Virus record (IMG/VR): IMGVR_UViG_3300005355_000022 | Coordinates: 1 to 25,883 of that record | Strand: one strand, 5' to 3' | Source of the DNA: a virus | DNA length: 25,883 nt | In this document: positions 4,221-25,883 of the stretch, in pieces | How the letters are laid out: each line of letters starts with the position of its first letter | Numbering within the stretch: position 1 is the stretch's first letter | Notes under the pieces: generated by a model | Databases searched by the model: none | What the model was told of the DNA's origin: nothing | Seen by the model: only the letters and a program-made list of their open reading frames with translations | Position numbers and translations under genes: made by a program

Positions 4221-5237
4221 CTAGACGTTCATCAGGATAACGGCGCTGGGGAAGTAGATCCGTGGGCCACCGTTGAAACCACAGTGGACACTGACGGAGC
4301 GCGGTGGGCCTTTGCTGGCGAAGTCGTCAATGACGTCGAAGTACATGCCAGGTGCCGCGCCAGGGTTGCTGGCGTTGCGCGTCATGGCAAAGTCCGCCAC
4401 GGGCTGACCAGCGGGGCGATTGCCCACGACCACGACCTTGTTGTCGGGGATGAACAGGTGGAACACGCCGTTGTCGTCGTAGTAGCCGTCGTCGAACTCC
4501 ACGATGTTGGGCAAGCCATCGTTCATGTACAGGGAGTTGACGCCCGTAAGGTTGTTCGCCGTGGCCAGGCCAGTGACGCGCCGCCCATACAGGTCGGCGC
4601 TGTTGGTGTTGCTGAGCATCTTGTTCACGGTGGTGCTGTTGGCGTAGGCGGGCGCGCGGCTGAAGTCCACGCTATAGCCACGCCGCAGCAACTTGACAGC
4701 ACGCAAGTCCGCCAGTGGCGTCGCCGTGGCGGGCGTTCCCCAGCCCACAGCCGCCGTGTACTGGCGGATTGGGTAACTGTCCGTGTGCGCCACCGCGCCC
4801 GTGGTGTCCAGCACGCTGAAACTGCCGCCCGTTAGCAACGTCCAGCCAATCCACTCCATGCGGTCTAGCGCCCGCTGGGTCAACTTGTTGGTTTCAATCG
4901 CGGTGAGGTCGCTGATGTCAATCGGCTGGTCGAACGTGCCGATCTTGCGGCGCTCCGTGATTTGCTTTTCGTCAATGTACGACTGTTCGCCGTAGACGCC
5001 AGGCGCAACCAGGTACCGCACCTGGCCAGTGGGCGCGACCGTGGCGGGCTGGCCGTTGTAGCCACGGAACTGCATCAAGCCCTTGAAGTTGTCCAGTTGC
5101 TCCCAGGCAAGGTACGCCTGGTCAACTTCTACCATGGGCATGATCTTGAAGATCTCGCGGTCGCGCGCCAGGCGCGGGAGGAACTGCTGTGCGATCTCCT
5201 TGAGTTCAATGCTTGTCGGGTAAACGAGGTCGGCCAT
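4221..5237 (-). CDS. Major capsid protein, phage E-like (HK97 fold)
   Basis: I start at ATG 5237 (MADLVYPTSIELKEIAQQ) because AAAGGA precedes it; a longer in-frame GTG/ATG start has no ribosome site. The 338-residue product has the usual layout of the phage major capsid protein E family: an N-terminal arm (FLPRLARDREIFKIMPMVEVDQAYLAWEQLDN), a glycine-rich loop, a long spine helix (QPIDISDLTAIETNKLTQRALDRMEWIGWTLLTGG), and a late P domain with NTTTVNKM- and DDGYYDDNGVFHLFIPDNKVVVVG-type stretches. That last segment (strand, FIPDxxVV, then a glycine) is a strong mark of the E-like family. It assembles the icosahedral shell. It lies directly downstream of the decoration gene, as expected. Confidence 0.9.
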   Translation of the reverse strand: MADLVYPTSIELKEIAQQFLPRLARDREIFKIMPMVEVDQAYLAWEQLDNFKGLMQFRGYNGQPATVAPTGQVRYLVAPGVYGEQSYIDEKQITERRKIGTFDQPIDISDLTAIETNKLTQRALDRMEWIGWTLLTGGSFSVLDTTGAVAHTDSYPIRQYTAAVGWGTPATATPLADLRAVKLLRRGYSVDFSRAPAYANSTTVNKMLSNTNSADLYGRRVTGLATANNLTGVNSLYMNDGLPNIVEFDDGYYDDNGVFHLFIPDNKVVVVGNRPAGQPVADFAMTRNASNPGAAPGMYFDVIDDFASKGPPRSVSVHCGFNGGPRIYFPSAVILMNV

Positions 5238-5265
5238 GTGCCCATTCCTTTCGTGCAAGCGGAAA

Positions 5266-5282
5266 GGCGGCACACAGCCGCC
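5266..5282 (-). promoter_or_regulatory. Leader hairpin before the capsid gene
   Basis: On the coding strand GGCGGC and GCCGCC enclose a 5-base loop and are followed by TTTCC. The hairpin lies in the 92-base gap between the decoration and capsid genes, about 28 bases before the capsid start. It could be a weak attenuator or a stabilising 5' structure. A TTTATAAAG word in the same gap could be a -10 element but has no convincing -35. Confidence 0.4.
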
Positions 5283-9096: not shown

Positions 9097-9360
9097 CTAC
9101 TCCTTCTCTTGCCATACGTACATGGCGTCGGGGTCAAAGCATGCGACACCGTTGAGCATGCCCACGAACTTGAGCGTACAGGCCATTTCCAGTGCTACAT
9201 GCTGGCCGCCCACGCTGGCGGCGTACAGTTGCCACGCGCCGTTAGGACTGAGCGGCTGGAGTATTCCCGCGTTGCGTTCTTGCTCCATTGCCTGGCCGCG
9301 TGCCCGCTGTTCCGGCGGGAGTTGTTCCGCTGGCACCATTCCCTCGCGGCGGCGTTGCAT
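9097..9360 (-). CDS. Small protein gene overlapping the portal 3' end
   Basis: From ATG 9360, preceded by AGGAGG five bases upstream, the product has 87 residues: MQRRREGMVPAEQLPPEQRA, then a glutamine- and glutamate-rich segment, then a compact part (NGAWQLYAASVGGQHVALEMACTLKFVGMLNGVACFDPDAMYVWQ). The start lies 119 bases inside the portal gene in another frame. The unique C-terminal 50 residues, outside the overlap, look folded. A later ATG (MEQERNAG) is an alternative but has a weaker ribosome site. No function is known. Confidence 0.55.
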   Translation of the reverse strand: MQRRREGMVPAEQLPPEQRARGQAMEQERNAGILQPLSPNGAWQLYAASVGGQHVALEMACTLKFVGMLNGVACFDPDAMYVWQEKE

Positions 9361-10978
9361 TTGGCCCTCCTGGTTGCATGCCGCGCGCCTGTGCGACAGC
9401 CAGCGCATTCTCGTGTTCTTGCTGGGCTTGCTCCACAGGCGACAGGGCTTCCATAAAGTTGGTGGTGAGTTTTTCCAGTTCCGCCGCGTCGGCTTCCGGC
9501 AAGCCCACTTCCGCGTACAGTTGCTTCCACTGGCTGGGCAACACGGCATCGGCCGTCTTTAGGCTGGCAATGGCCGCCCACAGCGCCGCCTTGTCAGGCT
9601 CGCTGACATCTCCAAGACTGGCCTCTGGTATGTAGTCCAGGGCATCCTCGCCATAGTTGTATTTGACAATCGGAGTGAAGATGTCACGCCGCAACATGGC
9701 GCACACGGATTGCTTTGCCTGTTTGATAAGCAACAGCAACACGTCCATATGCACCTGAGCGGCGGCACGGCTGTCGTGCTTGCCTTCGCCCGTGGCGAGG
9801 GTCTGGCCCAGAATGGCACGGGCAATGCAATCGTTGAGGAAGCCAAAGGCATTATCAAACGCCGCGTTGGCACTGGCGGCGGCCTGGACAACCTGTACGC
9901 TGGCGCTGAACGGAAAGGCCGCGCTGCCCGCGTTACGCAACTGGGACAACTTGGAGGCCATGTCGTACGTAGGGTCTATGGGGATAGGGTCGCCGTTGAC
10001 ATCTAGTTTTAGGTTGCCCTCGCTATCGCTGGCATACAGGTCTTGCGCATTTTCGGGTAGGAAGCCAATAAAACTGGGTACGACAAAGTTGGCAAGGAAC
10101 TTCATGTACTCGCCCCAAAGTTGCATCTTGAAGTTCCAGGCGGTATAGGCAGCACGGAGGATGCTGGTGCCACGAGGGTCGCCGTCCTTTGGCCGCCAGG
10201 TGAGTACGGCAAACTTCTCCCGTGGGAGCAAGTTGGGGATATTATCGGGTTCGCTAATAATGATGCCTATTTGCACAGGCCAGAACTGGCCAGGGATAAG
10301 CGCCAGGAAGCCCACGGTATTGAGGTAGACATCCACGACAAACGATATCACACGGCGGCGCTTTGGCTTGATGGCCGTGACGACTAGTTTACCCTTATCT
10401 TGCCCACGGCCTTCCGCAAAGATTAGTTCGGCAACCTTATTGCCAGCCGTGAGGGCATCCTGGGCCATGTCCCAAAGGACGTCCTCCAGGTTATCCATGT
10501 TGCCCAGGGCACGCCTACACACGGCGGCAATGTCGGCCGCCTTCTTAGCGCCCTGTTCGTCGGCCTCGTCCACGGCTGGCGGGATAACGTCCACGCGCTC
10601 GCTAAGGATAGCGCTCAGCATGGTGGTAACAGCGGCGCGCACGGCATCGTCGTAGAGCATGCGCTGGTACAAGTCGTCGCCAAAGTCCGTGCTGATGTCG
10701 TCAATGGCCCACGGCAACGACCGTAGCCAGTTGTACATGTATACGGTCTGCTGGCCAGCCACGTATTCACGGGAGCCAACGGCCTGGATGCGGTAGGGCA
10801 CGCCAGGCAATGGCGGCTTGCCCGTCGTGGCGCTCCCAGGCGCGCCGCCTACCACCACATCCGTAGTGAGGAGCTCGCCCTTTACCGTAGGGTCGCCAGG
10901 CGGCGCGACTACGCTGCCCGCTCCTGTGGCGGGCGCGGTGCGCGTGGGCTGTGTGCGGCGCGGCGGACGGCTGGCCAT
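9242..10978 (-). CDS. Portal protein, DUF935 / Mu gp29-like
   Basis: The 578-residue product starts at ATG 10978 with GGGAG six bases upstream. After a proline-rich arm, the family core begins at DDLYQRMLYDDAVRAAVTTMLSAILS. It continues through AGNKVAELIFAEG, PREKFAVLTWRPKDGDPRGTSILRAAYTAWNFK and FLNDCIARAILGQTLATGEGKHDSRAAAQVHMDV. The GDPRGxSxLRxxYxxWxFK and ILGQTLATGEGxxxSRAAAxVH motifs are diagnostic for Mu gp29-like (DUF935) portals, the dodecameric vertex through which DNA is packaged. The last 60 residues are a low-complexity glycine/proline/threonine tail encoded where the next gene overlaps, which may explain its unusual composition. Confidence 0.92.
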   Translation of the reverse strand: MASRPPRRTQPTRTAPATGAGSVVAPPGDPTVKGELLTTDVVVGGAPGSATTGKPPLPGVPYRIQAVGSREYVAGQQTVYMYNWLRSLPWAIDDISTDFGDDLYQRMLYDDAVRAAVTTMLSAILSERVDVIPPAVDEADEQGAKKAADIAAVCRRALGNMDNLEDVLWDMAQDALTAGNKVAELIFAEGRGQDKGKLVVTAIKPKRRRVISFVVDVYLNTVGFLALIPGQFWPVQIGIIISEPDNIPNLLPREKFAVLTWRPKDGDPRGTSILRAAYTAWNFKMQLWGEYMKFLANFVVPSFIGFLPENAQDLYASDSEGNLKLDVNGDPIPIDPTYDMASKLSQLRNAGSAAFPFSASVQVVQAAASANAAFDNAFGFLNDCIARAILGQTLATGEGKHDSRAAAQVHMDVLLLLIKQAKQSVCAMLRRDIFTPIVKYNYGEDALDYIPEASLGDVSEPDKAALWAAIASLKTADAVLPSQWKQLYAEVGLPEADAAELEKLTTNFMEALSPVEQAQQEHENALAVAQARGMQPGGPNATPPRGNGASGTTPAGTAGTRPGNGARTQRGNTPAAQS

Positions 10979-11467: not shown

Positions 11468-12790
11468 CTAGCGCGGTACGAACGTGGCGCGTTGCGGCAT
11501 AACGGCGGCCTTGCCTTGCGCCACGGGCTTGATGTCCAGGCTGGCAATGGCATACCGTACCATGTCCATACCATGGTCGTCGCCCTCTTGTGGCTTTTCC
11601 TTTACGGGCTTGCCCGCCACGTTCTTTGGCCACACGTAGGCTGGGAACTCCTGGATGGTGCTAAACGGCTTGTGCTCCGCCACCAGCGCCTCGTCCCGTT
11701 GCCGCAACGCGCCCGACCAGAACAACACCCTGTCCCGCGCCAGCCGCTCTTGTACCGCGCCCACGCCAGGCGGTATGGCGTTGTTCGCCTTTACGGCTGG
11801 CAACCCAGCATTGATGTATTGCTGGATAAAGTCGGGTTCGCTAGGGTCGCACTGGATAGACCGCAACCTGTAGTGCTTATGCAATGGCCGCACGGCTGGT
11901 ACCCAGTAGCCATCCACCGTTTTGCCCGTTTGGTAGATCTCGTGGATGAGCACGGCCACGCCGTCGCCCGTGACGCCCCATATGCCAAAGACGCCAGGGT
12001 TGGTAAATCCCCAGTCCTGGCTGGCAAAGTGCCACTGGAACCGTGGCAAGGCCGTCTCCACGCCGTCAATAACGTGGCGCTTGCGGCTGAACTCCTCGTA
12101 GACCACGCCTTCCGCCGCCGCCCATATGCCCAGGTATAGGCGCTCGCGCCGCACGCCCGTCAGGCGGCTCAGCGCGGCCAGGTATTCCGGCGTGACCGTA
12201 GGGTTGTCCTTGTGTAGGCTTACCAGTAGGCGGCAGTCGCCACGGTTGCACCGCGCCAGTAGCCAGTGATCCGGCCCTTGCGGGTTGCAGTCCATGAGGA
12301 GTTGCTGGTACGGCATAGCGTTATTACGTAGGCGCGTTTGGAGGTTTTCAATGTCCTCCTCCTCCACATCGCTGGCCTCTTGCACGTACGCCGTGTCGTA
12401 CTGGGTGGACATAATCTTGCGGCTGTCGTCCAGGCCGCCTACCACGATCTCGCTACCGTTTGGGTACACGTAGGCCGCTGGCTTTTCTTTGTTGCCGCCA
12501 AAGAACACCACGCCGTCGTTGGGCAACAGTACCCATTTTCGGAAATCCACCAAGGCCGCCGCGCTGAGCTCTGTCAGCGTTTTGCGCGTAAAGAGGTGCC
12601 TGGTGCCAGGGTACTTCCAGCACAGCGCGTTGATCTTCTCCATGCAGCCACGGCTCTTGCCCGTGCCCGCTGGGCCAGCGATCAGGAGCTCGCGACTCCT
12701 CAGCCAGAACAACTGGCTAACCGCGCCGTAGTGGCGGTATACGTGCGTTTGGGTACCTGGCGCTGAGATCGCCGGAGAGGTCGCCACCAT
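11468..12790 (-). CDS. terL: Terminase large subunit
   Basis: I start at ATG 12790 because GGAG lies six bases upstream; an ATG four codons earlier has no ribosome site. The 440-residue product has the Walker A motif GPAGTGKS at residues 39-46. The Walker B/acid stretch YDTAYVQEASDVEEED lies around 131-146, and motif LLMDCNPQG at about 164-172. The C-terminal nuclease domain has ASQDWGF (D259), IQCDPSEPD (D315) and GDDHGMDMVRYA (about 403-414), the usual acidic residues. It pumps DNA into the prohead and cuts concatemers. It follows the small subunit gene with the dispersed element C between them. Confidence 0.95.
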   Translation of the reverse strand: MVATSPAISAPGTQTHVYRHYGAVSQLFWLRSRELLIAGPAGTGKSRGCMEKINALCWKYPGTRHLFTRKTLTELSAAALVDFRKWVLLPNDGVVFFGGNKEKPAAYVYPNGSEIVVGGLDDSRKIMSTQYDTAYVQEASDVEEEDIENLQTRLRNNAMPYQQLLMDCNPQGPDHWLLARCNRGDCRLLVSLHKDNPTVTPEYLAALSRLTGVRRERLYLGIWAAAEGVVYEEFSRKRHVIDGVETALPRFQWHFASQDWGFTNPGVFGIWGVTGDGVAVLIHEIYQTGKTVDGYWVPAVRPLHKHYRLRSIQCDPSEPDFIQQYINAGLPAVKANNAIPPGVGAVQERLARDRVLFWSGALRQRDEALVAEHKPFSTIQEFPAYVWPKNVAGKPVKEKPQEGDDHGMDMVRYAIASLDIKPVAQGKAAVMPQRATFVPR

Positions 12791-12838
12791 GCCAGGCTCC
12801 ATTGCTACGACGATGTGGGGAGTAGGACGCCTTCTGGG

Positions 12839-12894: not shown

Positions 12895-13437
12895 CTATAG
12901 GCCGCCGCCGTCGGGGTCGTCCTTGAGCGGCTCCGTGGCCTGGCCGTCGCCTTCCCTGTATTCCCGAACCGTGGTGACATTGGCGTTCACGTTGACATTG
13001 TCGGTGAACAACTGGCGGTTCCGCCCCAACAGTTCCAGGGCTTTCATTTTAGCGTTCATATCCAGTTTGACGTCAACAATCTCGCCGTTGCGGTTGTATA
13101 CGAACCGAAGGAAGTCGCGCCAGTCGGCAAAGCCCACGTCCGCCAGTTCCGCAATAATGGCGTCGGCTGGCGGCAACCTGGCGTCCAACACGGCCTGGAT
13201 GGCCGCCTTTATGAGCGGGTCGCGCATGAGCAAGGGCACTATGGCATGTAGGTTGGTGTAGCCAGCCAGCGTGGCCGCCTTTTCGGCGTTGAACCTGGCT
13301 TCGCCACAGTAATAGTTGACAAACGCCGTGCGGCGGTCGTTTAGGCGGCGCTGGTGCAACCTGGTGTATGGCGGCTGGGCAACAGCGCCTTCCTCCACAT
13401 CGGGCAATACCAGCGCCAGCCCATTGTCGTTGTCCAT
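12895..13437 (-). CDS. terS: Terminase small subunit
   Basis: From ATG 13437 the product has 180 residues. Residues about 30-60 (LNDRRTAFVNYYCGEARFNAEKAATLAGYTN) match the helix-turn-helix DNA-recognition start of the Terminase_2 family. It continues with LLMRDPLIKAAIQAVLDARLPPADAIIAELADVGFADWRDFL, NAKMKALELLGRNRQLF and an acidic, glycine-rich tail. It binds the packaging site and loads the large subunit. The start lies 11 bases after the TAA of the preceding small gene. A longer in-frame start exists upstream but overlaps that gene and has no ribosome site. Confidence 0.88.
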   Translation of the reverse strand: MDNDNGLALVLPDVEEGAVAQPPYTRLHQRRLNDRRTAFVNYYCGEARFNAEKAATLAGYTNLHAIVPLLMRDPLIKAAIQAVLDARLPPADAIIAELADVGFADWRDFLRFVYNRNGEIVDVKLDMNAKMKALELLGRNRQLFTDNVNVNANVTTVREYREGDGQATEPLKDDPDGGGL

Positions 13438-13448
13438 GGTGGCGGCCT

Positions 13449-13637
13449 TTACTTGGTGGCCTTGGCACGTAGCCAGGCCAGGATTAGGCGCGTGCGCGTT
13501 GCGCCGTGCTTTGCCAGCAAATGTTCTTGCATGCTGGCCTGGCATCTGGCGCTGGGCACGTCTCCCTGAAGGGCACTGAGCGCCGTGGGATCGCGCCTTG
13601 GTGGCGGCATCGGCACGGGCATCAGGGTCGTGGCCAT
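13449..13637 (-). CDS. Small basic protein upstream of terS
   Basis: From ATG 13637, with AGGAGG seven bases upstream, the 62-residue product reads MATTLMPVPMPPPRRDPTAL, then QGDVPSARCQASMQEHLLAKHG and LILAWLRAKATK. The frame is open further upstream, but only the ATG has a ribosome site. The first 15 residues are proline-rich and the end is basic and helical. No family is recognised. It is the first gene of the packaging operon, downstream of a candidate promoter and the dispersed element copy D (13652-13665). Confidence 0.65.
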   Translation of the reverse strand: MATTLMPVPMPPPRRDPTALSALQGDVPSARCQASMQEHLLAKHGATRTRLILAWLRAKATK

Positions 13638-14752: not shown

Positions 14753-15142
14753 CTACCGTGCGCTTTCCAGGTCAATGGTGTCGCGGTCAATCGTGCCAGC
14801 GATGATCGCCTTTGCCAGCGTCACGTTTACGTAGGCATGCCGCTGTGCCTGTATTCGCTCCACTGCGCCGCCTGTGGCGTAGTCGGCCCAGTCCTTGTTC
14901 CCACGGGCGCTGTTGCAACTGCGGCATGCTGTTACCAGGTTGTCACTGTTGTTGTTGCCGCCATGGCTTCGGGCTTGCAAGTGGTCAAGGCTGACTTCTA
15001 CCGGATCCGCGTTGCGCATGTCCCTACCACAGTATTGGCAAATAAAGCCGTCGCGGATGTAAATCGCCAGGCGGCGCTCCCGTGTTATCCATTTGCCGCC
15101 GTTCATTGGCTTGTACCCTTGCGCCGTTGCTCGCGTGCCCAT
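14753..15142 (-). CDS. HNH endonuclease
   Basis: The 129-residue product starts at ATG 15142 with GGGAGGG six bases upstream. A longer frame start exists but lacks a ribosome site. RRLAIYIRDGFICQYCGRDM is followed by VEVSLDHLQARSHGGNNNSDNLVTACRSCNSARGNK. This is the classical HNH layout with two CxxC metal pairs (CQYC and CRSC), the catalytic DH in SLDH and the NNNSDNL segment. It could be a homing endonuclease or a packaging-associated nuclease. It sits as its own cassette rather than next to the terminase, which slightly favours a mobile, homing role. Confidence 0.85.
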   Translation of the reverse strand: MGTRATAQGYKPMNGGKWITRERRLAIYIRDGFICQYCGRDMRNADPVEVSLDHLQARSHGGNNNSDNLVTACRSCNSARGNKDWADYATGGAVERIQAQRHAYVNVTLAKAIIAGTIDRDTIDLESAR

Positions 15143-15170
15143 CGTGCCCTCCCTGGTAACTGTTGTGCCC

Positions 15171-15224
15171 GCCAGCCCAACTGCTGGCCTACGGCCAGTA
15201 TACCAGCCCTTTTCAGGAATGCAA
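15171..15224 (-). promoter_or_regulatory. Promoter-leader cassette P2 of the HNH gene
   Basis: Minus-strand TTGCAT (15219-15224), 16 bases, TATACT (15197-15202), then GGCCGTAGGCC-like sequence and hairpin GCCAGC-loop-GCTGGC (15171-15188). The GGGAGGG ribosome site follows. Confidence 0.78.
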
Positions 15225-15236
15225 GCCCTTTCAGGT

Positions 15237-15270
15237 AGCAAAATGCCGCCAGTTTTCAGCCTGGCGGCAT
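15237..15270 (-). terminator. Terminator after the 105-residue gene
   Basis: ATGCCGCCAG and CTGGCGGCAT form a 10-base perfect stem with an 8-base loop, followed on the minus strand by TTTGCT. It is placed between the stop at 15307 and promoter P2. Confidence 0.8.
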
Positions 15271-17127: not shown

Positions 17128-17898
17128 CTAGGCTGGTGGCGCTATGTGCCAGTAGCGCTCCCTTTGCACCGTGTCCGCGAGGAGGAGTTCGGTATCCGGC
17201 TGTCCGGCCAGGTTGCGTGCGCCCGTAAAGTTGCCCAGTTGCGCCCGCAAGCCCTTTATCTGGCTGGCGTAGCATTGGATAGCAAGCAACTTGGCGATAT
17301 AGGGCTGGCCAGTGCCCGCGCTGGTGCCCATAATGGCCGCCTGGTGCCCGCCATTGCCCAACTGGCGCAACCTGGCCGCCAGGCTGTTGCGCATTGCTCT
17401 GTACGGGCTTTCCTCGTACCACAGCATTTGTTCCGGCCGGATGGCCGTGCCCAGCAACAGCAAGCAAGCGTTATGAACGCGCTTGTGGTCGCTGTGAACA
17501 AGACCAAGTGGCGCAACGACCTGGCTATGTGGCTCCGCGCCCAACAGCGGCTCTAGCACGACTGAGATCGTTTCAGCGATCTCCTTGGCCTGGTATGGGT
17601 GCGTGCGCTGGCGCGTGCCCTTTGCGCCGTTTAGGTAGGAGCCTTGTAGCCAGTCCATATGCACGGCCTGTGCGCCCAGTTGGGCCAGCGCCTTGCGGTC
17701 TTCCTTGCGCCGCCAGGCCATGACATTTTCCCCTGGCGCAAAGCCACAGGCGGTATCCCAGGCGTTCAGTTTGGCATAGCCTTGCGGCGGCGTGCCCGCG
17801 AACACGGTAACGCACACAGCGCCCGCATTTGCCGCCATGTACTCGCCGCAACCAAATACGGCGTCATCTAGGTGAGGACTAATCACTATAACCGTCAT
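17128..17898 (-). CDS. PIG-L family deacetylase
   Basis: I start at ATG 17898 because GGAGG lies five bases upstream. The 256-residue product begins MTVIVISPHLDDAVFGCG, the family signature (PHxDD) that supplies zinc and catalytic residues (H9, D11, D12). A second zinc motif, LGLVHSDHKRVHNA, lies at about residues 131-144 (H135, D137, H138). The basic segment WRRKEDRKALAQLGAQ also matches the usual helix. Family members remove acetyl groups from N-acetylglucosamine conjugates. In this phage it could act on sugars attached to DNA or to a host surface glycan. It is about 6 kb from the TET/glycosyltransferase genes, so the link is only inferred. Confidence 0.85.
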   Translation of the reverse strand: MTVIVISPHLDDAVFGCGEYMAANAGAVCVTVFAGTPPQGYAKLNAWDTACGFAPGENVMAWRRKEDRKALAQLGAQAVHMDWLQGSYLNGAKGTRQRTHPYQAKEIAETISVVLEPLLGAEPHSQVVAPLGLVHSDHKRVHNACLLLLGTAIRPEQMLWYEESPYRAMRNSLAARLRQLGNGGHQAAIMGTSAGTGQPYIAKLLAIQCYASQIKGLRAQLGNFTGARNLAGQPDTELLLADTVQRERYWHIAPPA

Positions 17899-17913
17899 GC
17901 CAGCCTCCACTTA

Positions 17914-17980: not shown

Positions 17981-18868
17981 CTATTTCTTGCCCGCTCCTG
18001 GCTTCTTTGCCACGGCGGCTGTCTTGGCTGGCGCGGCGTTGGCGGGCGGCTCCACGTAGCCATAGTCAATGGTGTTGCCTTCGCTGTCCACCAAGTCCCA
18101 GTAGCGCAAGTTGCGCTGGCCGTCCTTGCCCAGTTCCGCGTACGGCGTGCCGCCCAGCCAGGCCGCATACCGCGCCTTTTCCGCTGGGTTGAAAAACTGT
18201 GCGCGGTTCATAGGAGAGACCTTGTTCTTGCGGCTGGTGGCGTCGCACACGATAATAGCGTGGTGTTGCGTGGCGCGGCGCTCGCCCTTGGCAACCTGGA
18301 TGGCCGCCTGGAGCAAGGCGTTGTAGCCTTCCTCGCCAAGGCTATACTGGCGGCAGTAGGCGCGGATAACGCGCTCCGCATCCTGTGTGGGCTGTGCGGT
18401 GCCCGTGAACGGCTCCGGCGCGGCCTTTGGCGCGGCGGCTGGCTTTGCGGCCTTTGGCGCGGTGTTGACAGGCTTTGGCGCGGGCTTGCCATTGGCGGCG
18501 TTCTTGCCCGTGGGCTTGAGCGTGGTAATGGCGGCGGCCTTTGGCTGGCGCGGCGTGCGCGGCAGCGGCGCTTGCTTGCCTGTCTTGCTGTCGTTGATGT
18601 CCTCCACGGTCAGCAAGCCCGTGAACTGGAACCGCACGGCGTTCTCGCCTTCCTGGCCAGGCGCGGCGCGCATGACTTCCGCCCGCACGTAGCGCCGTTC
18701 CGCCGCGCTAAGTGCCACGATTTCCTTTGCCATCCACTCCGGCACATCGGCTTCCGCCGTGTCCAGGCTGGCAATGGCCGCCGCCAGGTTCTGGTACCCT
18801 TCCGCCTGTTCGGCCGTGAGAACGAGATCGGTGTCCGGTGTTGCTGTTGCGGTCTGTGAATTCGCCAT
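17981..18868 (-). CDS. Candidate nested in-frame protein from an internal start
   Basis: Inside the 923-residue frame, ATG 18868 (MANSQTATATPDTDLVLTAE) is preceded at seven bases by AGGAGGG, much better than chance. It would yield the last 295 residues, which carry a helical segment, a lysine/alanine/proline-rich linker (PKPVNTAPKAAKPAAAPK), a folded helical part (RVIRAYCRQYSLGEEGYNALLQAA) and a basic tail. Whether it is used is unknown. Confidence 0.45.
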   Translation of the reverse strand: MANSQTATATPDTDLVLTAEQAEGYQNLAAAIASLDTAEADVPEWMAKEIVALSAAERRYVRAEVMRAAPGQEGENAVRFQFTGLLTVEDINDSKTGKQAPLPRTPRQPKAAAITTLKPTGKNAANGKPAPKPVNTAPKAAKPAAAPKAAPEPFTGTAQPTQDAERVIRAYCRQYSLGEEGYNALLQAAIQVAKGERRATQHHAIIVCDATSRKNKVSPMNRAQFFNPAEKARYAAWLGGTPYAELGKDGQRNLRYWDLVDSEGNTIDYGYVEPPANAAPAKTAAVAKKPGAGKK

Positions 18869-20752
18869 TTCCTGGCCCTCCTGCAGTTGTGTGGGCTGGG
18901 CACTGTTGCCCGCCACCAGTGTATAGCCATCGGCCACTTGCCGAATATGGCCGTCCTTTACCAGGCGCTTGATAGCGCCTTGCCAGCGATAGGCGCTGGC
19001 GTTCTGTGGGATTTGCGCTTGCAAGCCCGCCAGCCGCCACGGCTCGTGGATGTCCAGGGTTGCCATGGTGTCCCAAATGGCCTGTTCCAGCCACATCCCA
19101 CGGCTGGCGTACGTATGCGGGTCGGCCACGGGCGCGCTGGGCGCTGGTGCCTGTTCCGGCCGGATCTCGCCACTTTGCAAGGCCGCCTGTGTGGCCACGG
19201 GCAACGTGGCGGCCTTGGCGGCGTCGTCCGCCGCAAAGCGCCGCGCCAGCACGATTTCCGCCGCCTTGTCGTAGAGCGCCGCGCCGTCCATGCCCGCCAC
19301 CAGTACGCCGCTTTCCCGCAACGCCTTTATGCTGGCACCGTAGGTGTCCGGATGGCCGCTGGCGCTTACCTGTTCCACGACATGCACGGCGGCATTCAGC
19401 CGCGTTTGCTCGTCGTCGGCGGCCTGTTCCGCCGTGGCGGGCAATGCGTACGCTGGCGCGGTGCCCGTGCCAAACGCTGGCGCAATCTCCTGGAGCAAGC
19501 CTTGCGCCACCAGGCTGGTAAGGGCACGGTTGAGAAGTTGCGCATTCATCTTCGTGAGCCGAAGGATGTCCTCGCGGGTAAAGGTTGCGCCAGGCGAAAA
19601 GAACTCCAGAACGTGCGCCTGGCGCGCCGCCGCGCCTTTGGGCAACGTGGCGGCTGGCGCGTTTGCAGCCCGTTCCGCCAGTTCCACCGCGTTCGCCGCC
19701 GCGACCGTGGCTTGCATAATGGGATCCGCCTTTGCCTGTTGCTGGGCTTCCGCTTGCTCCTGTACGGGCACGGGTTGCGCGCCAGGCGCAACGTACGTGC
19801 CATTGCACACGGCATCCAGCAAGGCGGCGCGGGCATCCACACCAACAGCGCCCATGTACGGCGTGCGGTCGGTGCAATCGTACATGGCCGCCACCAGGTA
19901 TGTCCGCCCGCGCCCGCCAGGGTGAACGCGCAGCACGCCAGTCGCCACCAGGCCGTCCAGGAGCGCCTGAATGCGCTGGGTGTTTACCTTGGCACCGTTC
20001 CAGCCAAAGTGCTTTTGCATGCGCTCCAGCACTTCCCCACGGTACAACTGGCCGCCACGGATAACCTGCACGATGCCTTGCTCGTTGGGCGTGAGCGGCT
20101 TGCTGGCGGGCGCTGGCGTGGCGGGCGCTGTGGGCTGGGCGATCACCTGGTACTCGTCGGCAGCCACAACTGGCACGGCTGGCGCTGGGCTGGTGGCGGC
20201 GCGCATAATGGCCTCGCACGCGGCCACACAGCGCTGGATGACGGCCATGGTGCCACTGCGCCCACGGGTTTCGCGGTAGGTAAGCATGGTGCCAGCGGCG
20301 TCGTAAACTCCCCAGCGGAAGCCAGCGCCGTTGTCAATCTGCCGTATGGTGTATGCGCCGTAGGTGTAAACGCCGCCAGCGCCTTTGGTAAGTTGCGGGC
20401 GCTGTGTGGTGGCGGGCGCTGGCACGGGCGCGGCCTGTGCGGGTTGCACGGTGCCAGCGCCAATGGGATCCAGGGTTGCCAGCAAGTTGTCAATCTCGTC
20501 GTCCGTGGCGGGCGCTGGCTGTGCGGCGGCGGCCTTGCTGGCCTGGTACTCCCGCTCCTGCTCCTCCATCATGCCGTCCGTGATGTCTTGCACCGTAACG
20601 GACTTGCGGTGCATGCCCTTGGCAAAGCGATGCGCGTTGTCAATGGCCATGGCCGCGAAGCCGCCCGTGGGCGAGATACCGCGCCGCTCGCACTCAGCGA
20701 AGAAAAACTTCTTGGCGGCTGGGGAAAGTTGGAGGCCGTTGCTGGTGGACAT
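17981..20752 (-). CDS. Large multi-domain protein with at least three winged-helix units
   Basis: I start at ATG 20752, with AAGGAG seven bases upstream; a longer frame start passes into the leader hairpin. The 923-residue product has an N-terminal segment (6-66) that resembles a histone-like helix-loop-helix (IDNAHRFAKGMHRKSVTVQDITDGM). Residues about 126-184 form a small domain (GGVYTYGAYTIRQIDNGAGFRWGVYDAAGTMLTYR). Winged-helix units lie at about 220-290 (IVQVIRGGQLYRGEVLERM...LLDGLVATGVLRVHPGG), 373-440 and 548-615. Between them are alanine/proline/glutamine-rich linkers. From 629 a coiled and basic tail follows, ending KKPGAGKK. A DNA-binding or nucleoid-type role is likely, but no known family is recognised. 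It has its own promoter P6 and a strong terminator. Confidence 0.7.
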   Translation of the reverse strand: MSTSNGLQLSPAAKKFFFAECERRGISPTGGFAAMAIDNAHRFAKGMHRKSVTVQDITDGMMEEQEREYQASKAAAAQPAPATDDEIDNLLATLDPIGAGTVQPAQAAPVPAPATTQRPQLTKGAGGVYTYGAYTIRQIDNGAGFRWGVYDAAGTMLTYRETRGRSGTMAVIQRCVAACEAIMRAATSPAPAVPVVAADEYQVIAQPTAPATPAPASKPLTPNEQGIVQVIRGGQLYRGEVLERMQKHFGWNGAKVNTQRIQALLDGLVATGVLRVHPGGRGRTYLVAAMYDCTDRTPYMGAVGVDARAALLDAVCNGTYVAPGAQPVPVQEQAEAQQQAKADPIMQATVAAANAVELAERAANAPAATLPKGAAARQAHVLEFFSPGATFTREDILRLTKMNAQLLNRALTSLVAQGLLQEIAPAFGTGTAPAYALPATAEQAADDEQTRLNAAVHVVEQVSASGHPDTYGASIKALRESGVLVAGMDGAALYDKAAEIVLARRFAADDAAKAATLPVATQAALQSGEIRPEQAPAPSAPVADPHTYASRGMWLEQAIWDTMATLDIHEPWRLAGLQAQIPQNASAYRWQGAIKRLVKDGHIRQVADGYTLVAGNSAQPTQLQEGQEMANSQTATATPDTDLVLTAEQAEGYQNLAAAIASLDTAEADVPEWMAKEIVALSAAERRYVRAEVMRAAPGQEGENAVRFQFTGLLTVEDINDSKTGKQAPLPRTPRQPKAAAITTLKPTGKNAANGKPAPKPVNTAPKAAKPAAAPKAAPEPFTGTAQPTQDAERVIRAYCRQYSLGEEGYNALLQAAIQVAKGERRATQHHAIIVCDATSRKNKVSPMNRAQFFNPAEKARYAAWLGGTPYAELGKDGQRNLRYWDLVDSEGNTIDYGYVEPPANAAPAKTAAVAKKPGAGKK

Positions 20753-20784
20753 TGTGGTAACTCCTTGCCTGGTACCTTGCTGTG

Positions 20785-20842
20785 GCGGCCAGCCCGTGTG
20801 CTGGCCGCAACCCAATCATACCACGACCGGAACAGATTGCAA
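20785..20842 (-). promoter_or_regulatory. Promoter-leader cassette P6
   Basis: Minus-strand TTGCAA (20837-20842), 16 bases and TATGAT (20815-20820) precede hairpin GCGGCCAGC-loop-GCTGGCCGC (20785-20808), a 9-base perfect stem. The ribosome site and ATG 20752 follow. The -35 lies five bases from the previous stop. Confidence 0.8.
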
Positions 20843-20847
20843 GCCCT

Positions 20848-22800
20848 TTACGACGCCAGTTTTGCGGCATTCTTGCAGTCGGCTGGCAACGACCACGCAT
20901 AGTTGTAAACACGCCCACGGCTGGCGGTAGGCGCTCCCAGGTCGTACGTGGCCGTGGCACCGCAATAGTGGCAATGCTGGGTAACGCGGTAGTGGCCGCC
21001 AGCCGCCGTGCGGTCGTGTTGCCAGCGCGCCTTGCGCTGGTATTCGTTTGCGCCGCTGTCCAGGCTGTGGCCACAGCCCGCGCATTCCGTAGGTTCGTCG
21101 TGCTGTTCGGGCATTTGCACCAGGCCAGGTTGCGCCTGTGCGGGCGCTGGCGCAGCCTGTGCGGCGGCTGGCGTGGGCACGGGCACGGATCCGGCCGGAG
21201 CGGGCGTGGCCTGGCACCGCGTTAGCACGGTTTGATTGCGGCCTTTGTAGGTATCGTGCGCCTTTACGGTGCCACGCACATTGTAGGCGCTGCCCACGGC
21301 ATAGGCGTCGTCCCCAACCCAGCCTGTCCACCAGGTAAAGGCGCGGCCATCGGCGTCCGTAAAGGAAAGCAACGTGCGTTCCCCAAACTGGCCGTCAAAC
21401 ACACGGATGCCCGTGCAGGTAAGCGTGAAATCGGCGCGCTTGCCAATGGTGCCAGCCCATTCGTTGCACGGCTGGGCGGCGTTGCGGCGCTCCTCCGCAG
21501 CCTTTTCCCGCAACTTATGCACGTAGCCATACGTGTACGCCACGGTGCCCATGTTGCGCGTGGTCACGGTGTCCATGCGCACCAGGGTAAGCAAGTTGTG
21601 CTCAAAGTCGCTGAAATCGTGCTCTCCGCTGCGGGCTTGCAAGGCGACAATGGCCTCCTGGCGCAACGCCTTGGCTTCCTCTTGCTCTTCTGAGGTCGGC
21701 TCGTAGGGAATGTCGTCGTAGCGCTTGTCGTAGCGCGCCAGGCCGTGGTGGATGTGCAAGTAGTGCAAGGCGTAGTCCCGTGTGGAGCCGCCACGCACCA
21801 TATCGCGCTGGGCTTGCGCGCCACTAATGAACGGGCGCTGGCGGGCACGTAGGCTGCCCACCACGTAGGCCAGGAACTCGTCGGTGTCGTACACTTGCTC
21901 GCCACGGCCAAAGCCCACAGCCACGCCCGCCAACTTGAAAAGGCGTTCCGCAAGCAAGGCAATGGTTTCGGGGTCGTTGCCGCCCAGGAAATCCTTTAGG
22001 CACTGGCGGCCTACTTGCACCGTGCGCCCGTCCTCATGCACCAGCACAAAGGTTTCCTTGCGGGCACGGATTTTGTTGCAATGCTCGCAGTGGCCAGGGT
22101 CGGCCGTGCGGTACTTGGCTGGGATCTCCTGGCCAGGCACGTTGCGGATAACGGTGCCATCGCCAGCCCGTTCCAGCACGGCGGCCAGTGTCCAGCCGTT
22201 TAGGCGCGGCTCCTGGCCGTACACGGTAACAGCAGTGTACAGGAACTTGCCCGTTGTCTTCTTCTCAAAGGGATGGCCGTCCACGTCGTAGGCCGTGTAC
22301 CAGTAGGTAACGTCCCGCACGACTTCCTCGCCTTGCACCACGCGCACGGGCGGACAGCCCAGTTTGGCGGCGTGGCGGTTGAGCGCCGCAATGGCCTTGG
22401 CGAATTCTGGCAAGTTGCGGCTGGGGATGTCGTACTCGCCCACCAGCATTTCCACGGGCTGGCTGGGCTGGGCTGGCGCGCTGGGCGCTGGCACGGCCAC
22501 GGGCGCTGGTGCCTGGCTGGTGGCGGGCGCTGGGCTGGCCGGAATGGGCACTTGCGCCGCCGCGCCACCAGCCATAATGCTGTCCACGGCGGTGGAAACC
22601 ACGATCTTGGCGTCGCGGAGCAAGGAATAGTCGTTCCACCATTCGCCGTTCACGATAAGCCGCCAAACCCAGCCGCCAGGCTTGCGCTCGTCAACTTTGT
22701 TGGGGCAAAACACACGCACGCGGCCATCCAGCGCCGTGTACTCGCCGTCCCCAACCTTTTCCCACTTTACGCTTGCGGCCATTTTGCTGAGCTCTGTCAC
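20848..22800 (-). CDS. Large protein with zinc motifs and an OB-like domain
   Basis: The 650-residue product starts at GTG 22800 with GGGAG seven bases upstream. Residues 10-75 form a small beta domain (VKWEKVGDGEYTALDGRVRVFCPN...GGWVWRLIVNGEW). A proline/alanine linker follows. Residues about 225-275 have a Zn-type motif KYRTADPGHCEHCNKIRARKETFVLV and VGRQCLKDFLGG (C238, C241, C267). Residues about 447-530 look like an OB fold (WAGTIGKRADFTLTCTGIRVFDGQFGERTLLSFTDADGRAFTWWTG...VRGTVKAHDTYKGRNQTVLTRC). The C terminus has CAGC at 573 and CHYC at 610, a zinc-ribbon-like pair. Such combinations usually occur in proteins that act on DNA, so a role in replication or recombination is possible, but the family is not recognised. 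Confidence 0.68.
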   Translation of the reverse strand: MTELSKMAASVKWEKVGDGEYTALDGRVRVFCPNKVDERKPGGWVWRLIVNGEWWNDYSLLRDAKIVVSTAVDSIMAGGAAAQVPIPASPAPATSQAPAPVAVPAPSAPAQPSQPVEMLVGEYDIPSRNLPEFAKAIAALNRHAAKLGCPPVRVVQGEEVVRDVTYWYTAYDVDGHPFEKKTTGKFLYTAVTVYGQEPRLNGWTLAAVLERAGDGTVIRNVPGQEIPAKYRTADPGHCEHCNKIRARKETFVLVHEDGRTVQVGRQCLKDFLGGNDPETIALLAERLFKLAGVAVGFGRGEQVYDTDEFLAYVVGSLRARQRPFISGAQAQRDMVRGGSTRDYALHYLHIHHGLARYDKRYDDIPYEPTSEEQEEAKALRQEAIVALQARSGEHDFSDFEHNLLTLVRMDTVTTRNMGTVAYTYGYVHKLREKAAEERRNAAQPCNEWAGTIGKRADFTLTCTGIRVFDGQFGERTLLSFTDADGRAFTWWTGWVGDDAYAVGSAYNVRGTVKAHDTYKGRNQTVLTRCQATPAPAGSVPVPTPAAAQAAPAPAQAQPGLVQMPEQHDEPTECAGCGHSLDSGANEYQRKARWQHDRTAAGGHYRVTQHCHYCGATATYDLGAPTASRGRVYNYAWSLPADCKNAAKLAS

Positions 22801-23675: not shown

Positions 23676-24038
23676 TTACTCCTTGACGTGGCGGTATACG
23701 CCGTCGTCGCCCTTTACGTACCGACGCGCTTCCACCTTCTTCCACTTTATCCAGGTGGCGCTATCTAGGTCAATGCCGTACTTGTTTGCCAGTTGGGCCA
23801 GCAGAATAATCTGGTCAGCCATTTCTTCGGCTACCGCCGCCATGCGCTTCTGCGTGAGCATGCGCAAGGCGTTGGGGTCTGTCTTGAGTTGATCCTCAAG
23901 AAGCGTGATGGCTGGCTGGAGCTCGTCTAGGAACTCTTCTCTCAAGTGCTTCCAGGTTGTACGAGATGTGCTATCCGGCGCGTTGCTTGCGCCCCATACC
24001 TTGCTGCGCTTTTGCAGTGTATATATATCCTTTGGCAC
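23676..24038 (-). CDS. MazG-type nucleotide pyrophosphohydrolase
   Basis: The 120-residue product starts at GTG 24038 with GGAG upstream. After a variable N terminus, REEFLDELQPAITLLEDQL leads into MAAVAEEMADQIILLAQLANKYGIDLDSATWIKWKKVEARRYVKGDDGVYRHVKE. The EEMADxxILLxxLAxxYGIDL helix with acidic residues and the KxxxxRxY...DGxxRHVK end are typical of the MazG family, which hydrolyses nucleoside triphosphates to monophosphates. In a phage it could remove unwanted or alarmone nucleotides. It lies 11 bases after the glycosyltransferase. Confidence 0.78.
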   Translation of the reverse strand: MPKDIYTLQKRSKVWGASNAPDSTSRTTWKHLREEFLDELQPAITLLEDQLKTDPNALRMLTQKRMAAVAEEMADQIILLAQLANKYGIDLDSATWIKWKKVEARRYVKGDDGVYRHVKE

Positions 24039-24049
24039 GGGTAACTCCT

Positions 24050-24832
24050 CTACTTTGGTGCCAGGGCGCGCCAGTCAATCTTGACATCCACGCGCCCATC
24101 CTTCTTCACGATGCGCTTGACAAAGCCTGGCCACAGCGCGATAAGGCGGCTGACCATCTCATCCTCAATGCCTGGCACGGCGTAGGCGTGTTCCTGGCCG
24201 CCTTTGGATTCCCCGTACTTGCCCGTGCCAAAGGCGTAGCGGGTAATGCGCGCCGTGTGCCAGCCAGCCGCCAACACTTGCATGCTGAAGTCGGTGTCTT
24301 GCTTGAGCACCATTTCCTCGCGGTAGCGGATGCGCCGTAGGCGCTGGGCGTGGAAGCACATTGCCACGCGGCATGCGGTGTTGAGGACAAAGGCTTCCGT
24401 TGCGCTCCAGGCGTATTGCTGGAACTCCAGCCCAACTTGCGCCAGGCTGGAGTGTCCCAGGAAGTAGCCTTCCGCGCCACGCACGGCCTGTACGGCGGCG
24501 CACTTAGCGGTCTTGCCGTTGGCTGCTATGTAGAAGGAGTCTATGTCGTCGTCCATTACCCAGTACCATGGCTGGGCAAAACCGCTGTATTGCGCCGTGC
24601 TGGTGGCCGTGTCGCGTATCCAGTTACGGGCGTACACGCTCCCACGGTTGTCCTCTGGGAGCACCATGTAGTCGTACTCCGGCCTGGCCGCCTCGTAGGC
24701 GTCGTAGTCCTGCGGCTCCACCACCACCGTAAAGGGCACGCCACTTTCAGCCAGGAGATCCGCTGTCTTGGGCTTTTCCGCCCGCGCCTTGCTGGGTATG
24801 TACACGGGCACCGACGGTAACTGCGATTCCAT
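24050..24832 (-). CDS. TET-associated glycosyltransferase
   Basis: The 260-residue product starts at ATG 24832 with GGGAG seven bases upstream. It begins with VPVYIPSKARAEKPKTADLLAESGVPFTVVVEPQDYDAY, then LPEDNRGSVYARNWIRD. The metal/nucleotide-sugar motif WVMDDDIDSF (D94-D96) follows, and later YREEMVLKQDTDFSMQVLAAGW and KGGQEHAY. This order (IPSxxRA, VVEPxxYxxY, PExxRGxxxARNW, DDD, DTDF, GGxxxxY) is that of the phage TET-associated glycosyltransferase family, thought to add sugar to 5-hydroxymethylcytosine in DNA. It lies two genes from a TET-type dioxygenase, and the pair is a known arrangement. The sugar donor is not known. The start overlaps the 92-residue gene by 86 bases. Confidence 0.88.
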   Translation of the reverse strand: MESQLPSVPVYIPSKARAEKPKTADLLAESGVPFTVVVEPQDYDAYEAARPEYDYMVLPEDNRGSVYARNWIRDTATSTAQYSGFAQPWYWVMDDDIDSFYIAANGKTAKCAAVQAVRGAEGYFLGHSSLAQVGLEFQQYAWSATEAFVLNTACRVAMCFHAQRLRRIRYREEMVLKQDTDFSMQVLAAGWHTARITRYAFGTGKYGESKGGQEHAYAVPGIEDEMVSRLIALWPGFVKRIVKKDGRVDVKIDWRALAPK

Positions 24833-25025
24833 TGATGTGCTCCCTTATGGCCTGTTCTGCGTCTTGCGCCGTGGCGTATGGCCCATACCAGCGCCACGGC
24901 ATCCAGTACCCTTGCTTACTTGGCTCCTGGTACTTACGATCCTCCCGTATCTGGTACGTGCCGCGCTTGTTGTAGTTTTCATGCACACTGAAGCGTACCT
25001 CGTATGCCGTGGCTGGCGCGCCCAT
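24747..25025 (-). CDS. Small unknown protein between TET and glycosyltransferase genes
   Basis: The 92-residue product starts at ATG 25025, overlapping the TAA of the TET gene (TAATG), so it is coupled. Residues 1-65 are compact (YEVRFSVHENYNKRGTYQIREDRKY, then WMPWRWYGPYATAQDAEQAIREHING), a beta-rich start and a helix. The last 27 residues are glycine/glutamine-rich and coincide with the out-of-frame overlap with the glycosyltransferase start. No family is recognised. Its position suggests an accessory of the DNA-modification operon. Confidence 0.6.
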   Translation of the reverse strand: MGAPATAYEVRFSVHENYNKRGTYQIREDRKYQEPSKQGYWMPWRWYGPYATAQDAEQAIREHINGIAVTVGARVHTQQGAGGKAQDSGSPG

Positions 25026-25883
25026 TATTGCGCCTCGCCGCCGCCGCCCAGCGCGCCCATATTTGCGAGCGCCAGTTGGTCGTCGTAGAGGGCATCGGTG
25101 TTTTCCTCCGTGCCGTCGGTGGTAACGAGTTGAGGGCGGCTGTCACGATCGTAGAGCGGGTCGCCTAGTTTGCGGTGCTTTGCGCGGAATTCCTCTTCAT
25201 CCGCCGTGCCGCACTTGTGCATCTTGGCGCGGTAGTACAACACGACGCTGATGCGCTCGTAGTGTCCCTTCTTGCCAATGAGCGGCGTATTGCCGTGCCA
25301 CTCATGCACGTTGCACAGCAACACGTCGCTGGTGCGCATGTCCACGGCCACGCGGTACTTGGGGAACACCAGGTAACAGCCCGCGTACGTGTCGCCCGCT
25401 TCCAATACGCTTAGGACGCCAAAGCCTTCCTTGAGGTCGCCCGCGTCTTTGTGTACCGCCGTGCGGAAGTTCTTGTTGACCGTGCAAGTGGTGAAAGCCG
25501 TGCCTGGTATGATCCAGTCCGACTTGGTTTGCTCCACCATGGCCATCTGTGCCTGGTAGCGGTCGGGTAGTTCCGCACAGAAGACCTTGTCAATGGCACG
25601 GATGTAGTCCGCCACCTTCAGCATATCGCCAGGGTTGTCCTTGGTGAACGCGGTAAGGCGGCAAAACGGGAACCGTGCGTAGCGGTCAAAGGAGCCAATG
25701 ATGCCACTACTGCTGTCCGCCAGGCCGTCGGAGATGTGGCGGCGCGTGGTGTTGCTGACCGTGCCGTCCTTGAGTATGGGCTTGCCATTGTAGTAGCCAC
25801 GGTTCTGTGCTGAGTTCAGGCGGCCAGCCGTGTAGTCGGTGTTGGAGCGCGTGCCATCCAGTTTTATAGGGTTGATAAACGCC
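25025..25883 (-). CDS. TET/JBP-type 2OG-Fe(II) dioxygenase, 5' end cut by the window
   Basis: The frame is open to the right edge; 285 residues are present. The visible part begins FINPIKLDGTRSNTDYTAGR. It continues with SDGLADSSSGIIGSFDRYARFPFCRLTAFT, PDRYQAQMAMVEQT, WIIPGTAFTTCTVNKNFRTAVHKDAGDL, GFGVLSVLEAGDTYAGCYLVFPKYRVAVDMRTSDVLLCNVHEWHGNTPL and ERISVVLYYRAKMHKCG. HKD supplies the HxD iron ligands, HEWHGN the distal histidine and ERISVVLYYR the 2-oxoglutarate-binding arginine. This is the TET/JBP family pattern seen in phages, which oxidise 5-methylcytosine in DNA to 5-hydroxymethylcytosine. The glycosyltransferase downstream would then decorate it. The N terminus is missing. Confidence 0.9.
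   Translation of the reverse strand, partial: AFINPIKLDGTRSNTDYTAGRLNSAQNRGYYNGKPILKDGTVSNTTRRHISDGLADSSSGIIGSFDRYARFPFCRLTAFTKDNPGDMLKVADYIRAIDKVFCAELPDRYQAQMAMVEQTKSDWIIPGTAFTTCTVNKNFRTAVHKDAGDLKEGFGVLSVLEAGDTYAGCYLVFPKYRVAVDMRTSDVLLCNVHEWHGNTPLIGKKGHYERISVVLYYRAKMHKCGTADEEEFRAKHRKLGDPLYDRDSRPQLVTTDGTEENTDALYDDQLALANMGALGGGGEAQ

Follow-up and report, generated by a model that had tools for sequence, protein, structure and literature searches.

The TET/JBP dioxygenase and TET-associated glycosyltransferase (TAGT) genes at the right-hand end of the analysed window, by which we mean the whole 25,883-base stretch of viral DNA, are best explained as a two-step, post-replicative DNA hypermodification system of a tailed phage, in which the TET acts first, the TAGT second, and thymine is the most likely substrate; we give this reading a probability of about 0.5. 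That the module yields a glycosylated hydroxymethyl-pyrimidine, of either the cytosine or the thymine type, is highly probable. In the proposed pathway, the TET/JBP enzyme would hydroxylate a DNA-incorporated pyrimidine at its C5-methyl group, the TAGT would move a sugar onto the new hydroxyl, and a ParB-like protein, predicted to be encoded just outside the contig upstream of the TET gene, may target the TET to DNA. By the thymine route the product would be a base-J-like glycosylated 5-hydroxymethyluracil. Such a modification would plausibly protect the DNA against host nucleases and restriction.

The sequence-only reading of this DNA had interpreted the pair as a route from 5-methylcytosine to glycosylated 5-hydroxymethylcytosine and had expected a cytosine C5-methyltransferase close by. 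The TET/JBP-TAGT tandem, with a glycosylated hydroxymethyl-pyrimidine as its most likely product, was retained from that interpretation, and an obligatory start from 5-methylcytosine found no support.

Source record and genomic context

The window is the complete virus record IMGVR_UViG_3300005355_000022 and ends inside the TET gene, so that there is no sequence to its right. All likely genes lie on the minus strand. Judging from its terminase, portal and head genes, the record is a fragment of a tailed-phage genome: it encodes a terminase small subunit (12895..13545; PF03592, 1.7e-9), which is a tailed-phage marker, a terminase large subunit (11468..12802; phrog_2, 1.2e-33), a portal protein (9242..10978; phrog_113, 1.7e-41) and a major head protein (4221..5273; phrog_29, 6.9e-16). 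Six loci related by terminase were found in IMG/VR, and a search of that database with the TAGT returned no closer relatives. The observed/expected ratio of CG was 1.0, which is uninformative on CpG depletion.

Other genes of the record include one for an HNH endonuclease (14753-15241; PF01844, 7.6e-12) upstream of the terminase small subunit, one for an Ala/Pro-rich protein of 944 aa (17981-20815) with weak winged-helix matches (MarR_2, 5.9e-6, under the cut-off) and little other similarity, and one for a protein of 650 aa with CxxC motifs (20848-22800), which belongs to a phage family whose function is not known (phrog_2319, 2.7e-67).

The TET/JBP dioxygenase

The visible part of the TET gene (25025..25882, minus strand) encodes 285 aa that matched the Tet_JBP family of Pfam (PF12851, 1.6e-24) with 86.4 bits against a cut-off of 34.9, far beyond chance, as well as phrog_24024 (7.9e-62). 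The N-terminus is absent because the frame runs open to the contig end, and related TETs begin further upstream than the part visible here.

The HxD metal motif consists of H144-K145-D146 (25445..25453), in which the H and the D were the same in all aligned rows. The distal metal ligand is H196 (25295..25297), aligned with the histidine in the RELHATTP motif of TET2, and the 2-oxoglutarate ligand is R210 (25253..25255), aligned with TET2 R1896; all three features lie on the minus strand. H144, D146, H196 and R210 displayed no variation in 28 relatives or in an alignment of 94 rows.

AlphaFold modeling of the trimmed TET core with 77 sequences gave a pLDDT of 89.9, and this core was used for structure comparison, the untrimmed fragment (pLDDT 54) having been set aside. 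The best solved matches of the predicted core were NgTet1 (Z 14.1) and human TET2 (Z 13.5), with CMD1, CcTet and AlkB ranking below them (best AlkB Z 10.3), and the predicted double-stranded beta-helix fold is closest to those of solved TETs. A phmmer search of the PDB returned spurious matches only, such as ankyrin-repeat proteins, and a profile search reached TET2. Family score, invariant ligands and nearest fold all uphold the earlier assignment of a TET with the HxD...H...R residues, and the window TET can be classed from its sequence as a member of the TET/JBP family with intact catalytic residues.

The TAGT gene and its neighbours

The TAGT gene (24050..24832, minus strand) encodes a protein of 260 aa that matched PF20691 (9.9e-23; 81.6 bits against a cut-off of 27.5, far beyond chance) and phrog_842 (5.4e-28). 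Its DDD motif, residues 94-96 (24545..24553, minus strand), was the same in six relatives, in which D179 and G211/G212 were also invariant; the glycosyltransferase and its DDD motif had both been recognized correctly in the sequence-only reading, and both genes lie where it placed them. The nearest homologues of the window TAGT, from L008, L121 and Nonlabens phage P12024L, are each encoded immediately behind a TET from the window TET's own branch (branch B, described below), and this location ties the two window genes together. The gene order was ParB-like, TET, TAGT in L008 and L121 (a Spirulina MAG), and TET followed by TAGT in P12024L.

Between the two genes lies an ORF of 92 aa (24747..25025, minus strand), which shares 86 nt with the start of the TAGT gene and had no Pfam family above the cut-off and no PHROG; it is possibly a real small gene. 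Directly after the TAGT is a gene for a MazG-like nucleotide pyrophosphohydrolase (23676..24038, minus strand), whose match to PF12643 (6.9e-6) is slightly under the curated cut-off.

Phage TETs and the distribution of C5-methyltransferases

TET loci were collected from IMG/VR, GenBank phages and GTDB genomes, yielding 210 loci in 93 clusters at 90% identity, many of the records being fragments. In a maximum-likelihood tree, phage TETs fell into two main branches. The C5-methyltransferase branch, which was sampled with one query, comprised 17 rows with support of 100/100 and excluded the window TET, which grouped with 72 other rows (support 90/86), its exact placing being loose because its own branch is long. 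The window's branch is represented by 68 clusters among the rows outside the methyltransferase branch (branch B). A third branch is formed by the actinobacteriophage-type TETs L044, L046, L142 and L143, which have a ParB-like gene upstream and PF18751 downstream and carry Asn for Asp at the +3 position and Leu at the TET2 H1904 position.

The two main branches have different upstream neighbours. A C5-methyltransferase gene overlaps or abuts the TET start in 15 of the 17 clusters of the methyltransferase branch, and of the remaining two, one starts at a contig end and one has the C5-methyltransferase downstream. The gene directly upstream of branch-B TETs was ParB-like in 60 of 68 clusters and a C5-methyltransferase in none. 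Since the same ParB-like domain heads phrog_498, a family of phage DNA methyltransferases, the TET apparently takes the place that a methylase has elsewhere. The TET L120, from a Terriglobia MAG, has no ParB-like gene on its contig, and the genome lacks PF00145.

These neighbours do not support the expectation of a C5-methyltransferase near the window TET. No such gene is present inside the 25,883-base record, whose contig ends within the TET, and PF00145 was detected in only one of 90 whole records with TETs outside the methyltransferase branch (0/32, 0/8 complete phage genomes and 1/50), under search conditions in which the controls were positive, including Melnitz phage of the methyltransferase branch (2.2e-56). 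P12024L, HTVC112P and Cr30 are isolated phages that have related TETs but no C5-methyltransferase. Thymidylate-synthase homologues, which could offer a route through 5-methyl-dCMP, were absent from 14 of 15 phage records of such TETs. A SAM-enzyme-like protein with the motif EYFAGAG is encoded between the TET, which it directly follows, and an ADDT gene in three loci (L020:966-1703, L023:1555-2292 and L029:1000-1761); it had no Pfam or PHROG match and no PC motif, and was rejected as a hidden C5-methyltransferase.

The main alternative is that the TET oxidises 5-methylcytosine to 5-hydroxymethylcytosine, which the TAGT then glycosylates, with methyl groups supplied either by the host or by a methyltransferase encoded elsewhere in the phage genome. 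A supply of this kind is conceivable: locus L208 of the window's branch has a C5-methyltransferase 2.8 kb upstream of its TET, with a ParB-like gene between them, and PF00145 was found in two of four bacterial MAGs carrying such a TET, and hosts might provide 5-methylcytosine, which counts against thymine. However, L208, possibly a hybrid, is the sole ParB-branch locus of this arrangement, the other two MAGs lack PF00145 (although incompleteness or misbinning of these MAGs may play a part), and the rarity of PF00145 among the 90 records and the ParB-like upstream slot argue in the same direction. We therefore consider the 5-methylcytosine pathway rather unlikely, and the residues of the base pocket, which bear on it from both sides, are considered next.

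Thymine or cytosine as the substrate

Thymine is the most likely substrate of the module because it already has a methyl group and the branch is without C5-methyltransferases; given an active module, we lean toward thymine. More specifically, and more tentatively, ParB-linked phage TETs may be in-DNA thymine hydroxylases that, together with TAGT, make base-J-like glycosylated 5-hydroxymethyluracil. Besides the near absence of C5-methyltransferases and the two MAGs without PF00145, thymine is favoured by the presence of ADDT and by a split in pocket residues.

Genes for ADDT (amino acid:DNA transferase, PF18724) were found near the TET in 29 of 68 branch-B clusters versus 0 of 17 in the other branch, with a Fisher value of 4e-4 that is descriptive only because the clusters are related. 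Characterised ADDT members act on thymine-derived bases. The P-loop kinase PF18751, considered as a further thymine marker, was dropped: it occurs in both branches, and the downstream chemistry consequently gives no clean separation of cytosine from thymine.

Near the base pocket, R218 (25229..25231, minus strand) occupies the TET2 H1904 position according to the TET2 alignment. This position was Arg in 69/69 rows of the window's branch, Asp in 16/17 of the C5-methyltransferase branch and Leu in 4/4 Margaery-like TETs, and position 198 was Asn in 69/69 rows of the window's branch versus Val in 17/17 of the C5-methyltransferase branch. If ParB-linked TETs hydroxylate thymine, the Arg/Asp switch would mark thymine-type versus 5-methylcytosine-type enzymes. 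These differences between the branches speak against the 5-methylcytosine pathway, but D149 (25436..25438, minus strand), aligned with TET2 N1387 and, by motif spacing, with NgTet1 D234, is consistent with it: this position was Asp in 69/69 rows of the window's branch and also in 17/17 rows of the C5-methyltransferase branch (Asn in 4/4 Margaery-like TETs). NgTet1 is a 5-methylcytosine oxidiser, and NgTET D234A is inactive (PMC11404850). The pocket could therefore still read cytosine. Y216 matches TET2 Tyr1902, which stacks on 5-methylcytosine (PMC4787775), and stacking by Y216 would serve thymine or cytosine alike.

Two further observations count against thymine. The solved relatives found are 5-methylcytosine (or 6mA) enzymes, and TAGT-family proteins are also carried by Aeromonas T4-like phages, which are thought to use hydroxymethylcytosine.

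Comparison with known modification systems

Phage routes to glycosylated cytosine are established in the account of PMC12730594, which cites Burke 2021 for a phage C5-methyltransferase, TET and glycosyltransferases cooperating on cytosine, and this precedent favours the 5-methylcytosine pathway. The window module shares with these systems a phage TET/JBP enzyme accompanied by one or more glycosyltransferases, the same fold and the same metal ligands, but differs in that the expected upstream neighbour of the window TET is a ParB-like gene and in that this TET belongs to a separate branch with Arg in the pocket where theirs have Asp.

Base J of kinetoplastids is made from thymine by JBP1/2 and then JGT (PMC11065753), and since thymine is the substrate, this route needs no methyltransferase. 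Compared by pathway, the window module would resemble it in placing in-DNA hydroxylation by a TET/JBP enzyme before glycosylation. It differs from the kinetoplastid system in its phage origin, and no J-binding or SNF2 domain was seen in the window TET fragment.

In Nonlabens phage P12024L, the TET (same branch, 40% identity) is directly followed by the TAGT (33% identity), as in the window, but an N6/N4-type DNA methylase gene follows the pair and no ParB-like gene was found directly upstream. The thymidine hypermodification systems of phiW-14, M6 and ViI are similar in that TETs of the window's branch can also have ADDT-family enzymes next to them. Unlike the window, in which neither ADDT nor a kinase is in view, these phages use a 5-hmdU DNA kinase and make 5-hmdU at the nucleotide level, and as of 2019 there was no report of glucosylated 5hmdU in a phage (PMC6449724). 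An analysis by Iyer from 2013 reportedly predicted phage TET/JBP specificities and named TAGT-like enzymes, and part of the thymine/ParB reading may therefore already be in print.

Downstream genes and the possible fate of the product

Downstream of branch-B TETs were genes for TAGT, other glycosyltransferases, FkbM methyltransferase, radical SAM and GATase proteins, PF18751 and PF18724. This variability in the relatives would suit an arrangement with split targets, in which the TET acts on DNA and the TAGT on another acceptor, or in which the product is processed further, for example from GlcNAc to glucosamine, by the PIG-L type deacetylase encoded on the same strand (17128-17910; PF02585, 1.4e-11). 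Such an arrangement is improbable: the TAGT directly follows the TET in the closest homologues, and PIG-L, which lies 6 kb from TET-TAGT in the window and was carried by none of the 32 TET relatives tested, was rejected as a pathway partner.

That both genes are decaying or non-functional cargo in a phage with unmodified virion DNA, as a contig fragment with the TET N-terminus out of view might suggest, is very improbable given that neither frame is interrupted, no catalytic residue is lost and distant relatives keep the gene order.

If the ParB-linked branch does act on thymine, phages carry a base-J-like route known before from kinetoplastids; JBP/JGT would then have a likely evolutionary origin in phages, enzymes that write sugar-modified T at sites in DNA would be on hand, and a phage TET beside a glycosyltransferase could not automatically be read as cytosine modification. 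If the substrate is cytosine instead, the branch would need host-derived methyl groups, which would itself be unusual.

Several phage TETs are misnamed in public records (among L039, L040, L041, L042 and L044), where they appear as 'SNF2 DNA repair protein' or 'DnaJ chaperone', and the 'queuine tRNA-ribosyltransferase' label of PHROG 6059 is a further mislabel of a TET in the same group.
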